Of a stretch of DNA of 64,000 nucleotides, positions 1,478 to 2,046 are shown one piece after another. The number at the start of each line of letters is the position of its first letter. Within the stretch, counting starts at the first letter, position 1. The stretch covers positions 953,001-1,017,000 of the forward strand of contig NZ_CP147020.1 of assembly GCF_037126435.1 (NCBI RefSeq), given 5' to 3'. Under the pieces are notes generated by a model. It saw only the letters and a list, made by a program, of their open reading frames with translations, had not been told where the DNA came from and did not search any database. The stretch is from Bernardetia sp. ABR2-2B. GTDB lineage: Bacteria; Bacteroidota; Bacteroidia; Cytophagales; Bernardetiaceae. Made by a program: the position numbers and the translations under genes.

Positions 1478-1517
1478 AAAAAAAAGCATTTCCAAACTAA
1501 ATTAGAAATGCTTTTTA
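1478..1517 (-). terminator. Intrinsic terminator of SRP RNA copy 1
   Basis: Inverted repeat AGCATTTC (1485-1492) / GAAATGCT (1505-1512) with a 12-base loop. Read on the minus strand it is followed by eight U residues, directly downstream of SRP RNA copy 1. A plus-strand reading also has a short U run. Confidence 0.7.
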
Positions 1518-1587
1518 TAATAGGATAGAATTGTATAATTTTTATGTATAACAATTCAAGAATGTCTTGTATTCTTAATAAGAAAAT

Positions 1588-1673
1588 GTAGCCGACAATA
1601 CACCGCTCAACCATCTACCCTTGCTGCCTTCCGACCCTGGGGGAGTTCAACAGGAGCTAGTCACGCCGACCAC
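1588..1673 (-). ncRNA. ffs: Signal recognition particle RNA (small bacterial type), copy 1
   Basis: On the minus strand the segment at 1618-1641 reads as the conserved SRP RNA domain IV: a GGAA tetraloop closed by C-G (1629-1632 on the plus strand is TTCC), the asymmetric loop with AGCA on the 3' side, and CAG on the 5' side. This is the Ffh-binding hairpin of 4.5S RNA. The terminal helix pairs 1665-1673 with 1588-1596, nine pairs including three G-U. The RNA targets nascent membrane and secreted proteins to the translocon with Ffh and FtsY. A second copy lies at 1927-2012. Ends are set by the terminal helix and may be off by a few bases. Confidence 0.93.
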
Positions 1674-1677
1674 GATG

Positions 1678-1707
1678 CAAAGGTACTATTTTTTCTTGGA
1701 GATGCAA
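1678..1707 (-). promoter_or_regulatory. Bacteroidota-type promoter of SRP RNA copy 1
   Basis: Read on the minus strand: -33 element TTG (1705-1707), a 19-base spacer, then TACCTTTG (1678-1685), an exact match to the Bacteroidota -7 consensus TAnnTTTG. The -7 box ends four bases before the first base of the SRP RNA terminal helix. Copy 2 has the identical arrangement. Confidence 0.7.
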
Positions 1708-1830
1708 GTAAAAAAGATTTATTTTTTCTATTATTTTTTATCTTTTCAGTAACTACTTAAAAATCATTGAGTTATAAACACTATTTTATTGAAAATATTA
1801 AAGCTAAATAAATCAATACATTGAAATAAA

Positions 1831-1878
1831 AAAAGGCATTTCTAAATCAGCTTAAAACTTGATTTAAAAATGCCTTTT
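1831..1878 (-). terminator. Intrinsic terminator of SRP RNA copy 2
   Basis: Nearly perfect 19-bp inverted repeat, 1831-1849 against 1860-1878, with one mismatch and a ten-base loop. It ends in a U run on the minus strand, about 50 bases downstream of SRP RNA copy 2. It separates the two SRP RNA genes into independent transcripts. Confidence 0.7.
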
Positions 1879-1926
1879 GAATATCTTATGTTTTTTAAAA
1901 ACTCTCAAATAGAATTTATAAAAAAT

Positions 1927-2012
1927 GTAGTCAGCAATACACCGCTCAACCACCTACCCTTGCTGCCTTCCGACCCTGGGGGAGTTCAGCAGGAGCTAGT
2001 CACGCTGACTAC
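1927..2012 (-). ncRNA. ffs: Signal recognition particle RNA (small bacterial type), copy 2
   Basis: Same domain IV core as copy 1 (1957-1980 identical to 1618-1641). The terminal helix 2004-2012 with 1927-1935 is nine Watson-Crick pairs. Where it differs from copy 1 the differences keep pairing, which argues that both copies are functional. There are only a few substitutions across 86 bases. It has its own promoter and terminator. Confidence 0.93.
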
Positions 2013-2016
2013 GATG

Positions 2017-2046
2017 CAAAGGTACGAATCTTTCTTAGACATGCAA
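2017..2046 (-). promoter_or_regulatory. Bacteroidota-type promoter of SRP RNA copy 2
   Basis: Minus strand TTG (2044-2046), 19-base spacer, TACCTTTG (2017-2024), the same boxes, spacing and four-base gap to the RNA as for copy 1. The intervening spacer sequence is different, so the two boxes stand out as conserved. Confidence 0.7.

Follow-up and report, generated by a model that had tools for sequence, protein, structure and literature searches.

Two diverged SRP RNA genes in tandem, each with its own promoter and terminator, in Bernardetia sp. ABR2-2B

Results and discussion

Bernardetia sp. ABR2-2B carries two diverged small SRP (4.5S-type) RNA genes, copies A and B, which lie one behind the other on the minus strand at 1478-2046 of the window (the whole 64,000-nucleotide stretch of DNA that was analysed) as two consecutive units of promoter, RNA and terminator. 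SRP RNA, which binds Ffh and is needed for membrane-protein targeting, is usually single-copy in bacteria. What is unusual is the stable, old and diverged genus-wide pair, not the RNAs themselves. Most likely a second gene dose has been retained since the genus ancestor, a finding that we regard as real but modest. The features of the locus, in the order of transcription, are as follows.

2017..2046, minus strand: copy A promoter, TTG-N19-TACCTTTG (pattern scan; boxes and spacing invariant in 14/14 copies)
1927..2012, minus strand: SRP RNA copy A, 86 nt between terminal-helix ends (Rfam RF04183, 57 bits)
1828..1878, minus strand: copy A terminator, hairpin and T-run; stem sequence varies among species, pairing kept
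1746..1772, minus strand: part of the spacer between A and B, recurring, as judged by eye, upstream of B in other genus genomes
1678..1707, minus strand: copy B promoter, TTG-N19-TACCTTTG with another spacer (pattern scan; boxes and spacing invariant in 14/14 copies)
1588..1673, minus strand: SRP RNA copy B, 86 nt (Rfam RF00169, 43.8 bits)
1521..1557, minus strand: copy B 3' trailer, weak hairpin GAATTG...CAATTC and invariant CAATTCTATCCTA (7/7 genomes)
1478..1516, minus strand: copy B terminator, hairpin and T-run

Identification of the two genes

Rfam cmscan matched copy A to RF04183 at 2018-1924(-), with 57 bits against a gathering cut-off of 55.2, and copy B to RF00169 at 1676-1582(-), with 43.8 bits against a cut-off of 40. 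Together with the promoter scan and the hairpins, these matches confirmed the preliminary description of the locus, made from the sequence alone, as tandem SRP RNA genes with a promoter and a terminator each. The span given there, 1588-2046, takes in both RNAs and both promoters, but the copy B terminator at 1478-1516 falls outside it. A search of the entire 5.4 Mb genome returned exactly these two SRP RNA genes. RNase P RNA is single-copy in the same genome, which argues against a general duplication of housekeeping RNAs. There are no tRNA genes in the 64-kb window, and a plasmid search with the neighbouring phosphoesterase returned distant homologues only.

In each of 11/11 genomes of the family the search returned exactly one full-length Ffh, the remaining matches being one FtsY-like protein per genome and weak partial ones. 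A second Ffh paired with the second RNA was rejected on this count, and the two RNAs most probably supply a single SRP pool.

Structure of the RNAs

The two copies differ at 7 of 86 bases (positions 3, 7, 24, 60, 79, 80 and 82), and all seven differences preserve pairing. Domain IV, CAGGGUCGGAAGGCAGCA, with its GGAA tetraloop and Ffh-binding internal loop sequence, is the same in both, as had been described. The terminal helix of this genome has nine Watson-Crick pairs in copy A and three G-U pairs in copy B, in agreement with the earlier remark that one copy uses G-U pairs where the other has Watson-Crick pairs. Across 12 distinct family RNAs, standard pairs made up 98% of pair cells and eight pairs had changed on both sides, five of these in the terminal helix (helix 1), where standard pairs reached 100% and double changes affected 5/9 pairs. 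Shifting the pairing partners by 1-3 columns lowered pairing to 27-54%, a large effect, with controls that correct only partly for relatedness and a structure that was derived from the same sequences. The terminal helix is closed and backed by covariation, to which the compensatory changes between the paralogues contribute.

Promoters and 3' ends

The TTG-N19-TACCTTTG pattern occurs twice in the 64-kb window, in both cases as an SRP RNA promoter, against 0.02 occurrences expected; the looser TTG-N19-TANNTTTG, taken alone, was not above chance. In Flavobacterium psychrophilum, a member of the Bacteroidota, the primary sigma factor has TAnnTTTG as its -7 consensus (PMC9723704), and, judged by this Flavobacterium consensus, 14/14 genus copies are of the Bacteroidota primary-sigma type, with a TAnnTTTG -7 box and an upstream TTG. 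The boxes and the 19-nt spacing are unchanged across the 14 copies of 7 genomes. The promoter spacers cluster by copy and not by genome (mean identity 0.92 for A-A, 0.86 for B-B and 0.74 for A-B in the same genome; true labelling rank 1 of 64), so that the promoters are indeed alike in boxes and spacing and unlike in spacer sequence, as first noticed.

Both terminator hairpins are A+U-rich and followed by T's. The A hairpins change in sequence between species and keep their pairing, and the B hairpin is nearly constant. The invariant 13-mer CAATTCTATCCTA forms the 3' arm of the weak B-trailer hairpin and is absent from copy A; it is possibly a processing signal, and the B trailer and hairpin showed no covariation among the 7 genomes. 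An AAGAYATT-like motif was also seen shortly after most A and B RNAs (L033-L039, L044), although its distance from the 3' end varies. A T-run directly follows the terminal helix in the family outgroups that were sampled, and no downstream hairpin comparable to the genus terminators was found in them; the distal hairpins therefore seem to be a feature of the genus Bernardetia. Since a short T-run follows the terminal helix in this genome too, the 3' end possibly arises either through self-termination or when a transcript of ~180-190 nt is trimmed.

Conservation and age of the pair

Both copies are present and intact in 7/7 sampled genus genomes (this genome and six relatives). The preliminary description had taken both copies to be maintained and had named absence or degradation in related strains as the outcome that would speak against this; neither copy was lost or decayed in any of the seven, even where they lie on different contigs. 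The copies are in tandem and at most ~350 bp apart in 5/6 relatives, and copy B, over 101 nt, is 100% identical in five genomes and 99% identical in a sixth. In the remaining relative, G004, the copies sit on separate contigs beside different genes, each intact with its promoter and terminator. Copy A there adjoins what we take, from the translation, to be an rdgB-like gene, at the same site as in G001 and G005, and copy B a presumably ybaB-like gene, again named from its translation. G004 is a metagenome assembly, several of the relatives being drafts of this kind, and the split could be a misassembly. Each unit contains the elements for independent transcription and was retained through rearrangements of the flanks.

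An Ffh tree placed G003 as sister to the other six genus genomes (support 100/98). As the promoter spacers and terminators are copy-specific yet kept between species, the duplication took place before the genus arose. The RNA bodies cluster by copy more weakly than the spacers (true labelling rank 2 of 64). One form of the inner loop occurs in both G003 copies and another in both copies of the other six genomes, which points to one or more events of sequence transfer from copy to copy. Copy B of G001 resembles copy A of that genome in its promoter spacer and in the start of its trailer. We infer from these patterns that gene conversion has made the RNA bodies partly uniform, whereas most promoter spacers and every terminator remain copy-specific.

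Copy number in related bacteria

An SRP RNA match was obtained in 389/396 Bacteroidia genomes, with two copies only in this genome and in G178 (1/388 of the other genomes having a match), and in 112/118 genomes of the order, where two copies outside the genus were seen only in G008, G439 and G480 (3/106); surveys of this size use strict filters that may miss diverged copies, so these rates are lower bounds. The earlier statement that most bacteria have one SRP RNA gene thus holds among the sampled Bacteroidia. Within the family, G007 and G010 have one copy each, G008 has two unlinked copies and G009 has SRP RNA at the ends of two contigs. In several relatives (L013, L022, L023, L078-L080) the gene after the SRP RNA begins MKFFIDTAN... 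and presumably encodes a protein of the transaldolase/fructose-6-phosphate aldolase kind, which it resembles by eye; this neighbour lies beside neither copy in the genus of the present genome.

Searches of open-access papers turned up nothing relevant on multi-copy bacterial SRP RNA, the mycobacterial papers retrieved being concerned with other RNAs. Such an old, conserved pair was likewise not described in the papers covered, which include little of the subscription literature. Automatic annotation may already list both genes.

Origin and role of the two copies

With a probability of roughly 0.7, we favour an old duplication that left two autonomous units with interchangeable SRP RNAs, serving as dose or backup, whose bodies gene conversion would have made partly uniform. 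To judge from the tree and the copy-specific flanks, the duplication of the SRP RNA gene would date to the common ancestor of the genus or to an earlier time. Judging from its anatomy, each copy would be transcribed autonomously from a primary-sigma promoter, with the RNA starting ~4 nt downstream, towards a hairpin terminator; the 3' trailer in front of that hairpin would either be trimmed off or not be made at all, with the RNA ending at the T-run right after the terminal helix. Sharing one domain IV and equivalent terminal helices, both RNAs would load the single Ffh interchangeably, and the second gene, if both are expressed, would add dose or backup. Gene conversion would act on the bodies in part, with most spacers and all terminators staying copy-specific.

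The divergent spacers and the B-only trailer could instead mean differential expression rather than plain dose, both of which the preliminary description had put forward as possible roles. It is unlikely, if worth keeping in mind, that the pair is subfunctionalised, with A and B expressed under different conditions, or processed differently via the B trailer, and so not interchangeable; the copy-specific conservation of the spacers across species agrees with this, as do the invariant 13-nt element and weak hairpin that copy A lacks. The promoter boxes and spacing are identical between A and B, however, and the B spacer of G001 became A-like, a change that a strict division of labour by promoter would not allow. 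The predicted stabilities differ in this genome (A -32.6, B -28.2 kcal/mol), but in G003 it is copy B that is predicted to be the more stable (B -34.2, A -30.6 kcal/mol). Slightly more doubtful still is a genus-wide split of the SRP RNA job between paralogues of distinct expression or processing through the B trailer, which would give two SRP pools with one Ffh.

It appears improbable that one of the copies is a pseudogene or a duplicate in decay, still awaiting loss. Redundant copies are usually lost, and most relatives have one, but in seven species both copies keep invariant promoters, compensated helices, an identical domain IV and terminators; we rejected this reading on the conservation of pairing and promoters. 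Short repeats can mis-assemble or collapse, and the SRP RNA of G009 sits at contig ends, yet A and B differ in all flanks as well as in their bodies, and the pair recurs not only in drafts but also in assemblies with 1, 4 and 5 contigs. The independent sister-species assemblies make an artefact very unlikely, and with two copies in the whole genome it was rejected as next to inconceivable.

As an old, diverged, genus-wide pair in which each copy has its own promoter, the locus lends itself to the question of whether the dose of SRP RNA is limiting. It also suits the study of 3'-end formation and of how gene conversion shapes a short essential RNA.

Comparison with known SRP RNA genes

Copies A and B are ordinary members of the SRP RNA clan (CL00003). 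They share with RF04183 (Bacteroidales_small_SRP) and RF00169 (Bacteria_small_SRP) the GGAA domain IV, one long hairpin, a terminal helix and a 5' end at the promoter, and this genome departs from that norm in having two diverged copies, each with its own transcription unit, instead of one. The two full copies of G008, from another genus of the same family, likewise have TACCTTTG promoters but are non-tandem, have other neighbours and are closer to each other than to A or B. G439 and G480, of one other genus of the order, and G178 resemble the Bernardetia pair in having two SRP RNA matches separated by a few hundred bases. In G439 and G480, where the pair is kept in both genomes, the copies have diverged much further and the spacer holds an open reading frame, whereas in G178 a run of N interrupts the copy that gives the second match. 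Since these three genomes belong to other families, their duplications probably arose independently of the Bernardetia pair.
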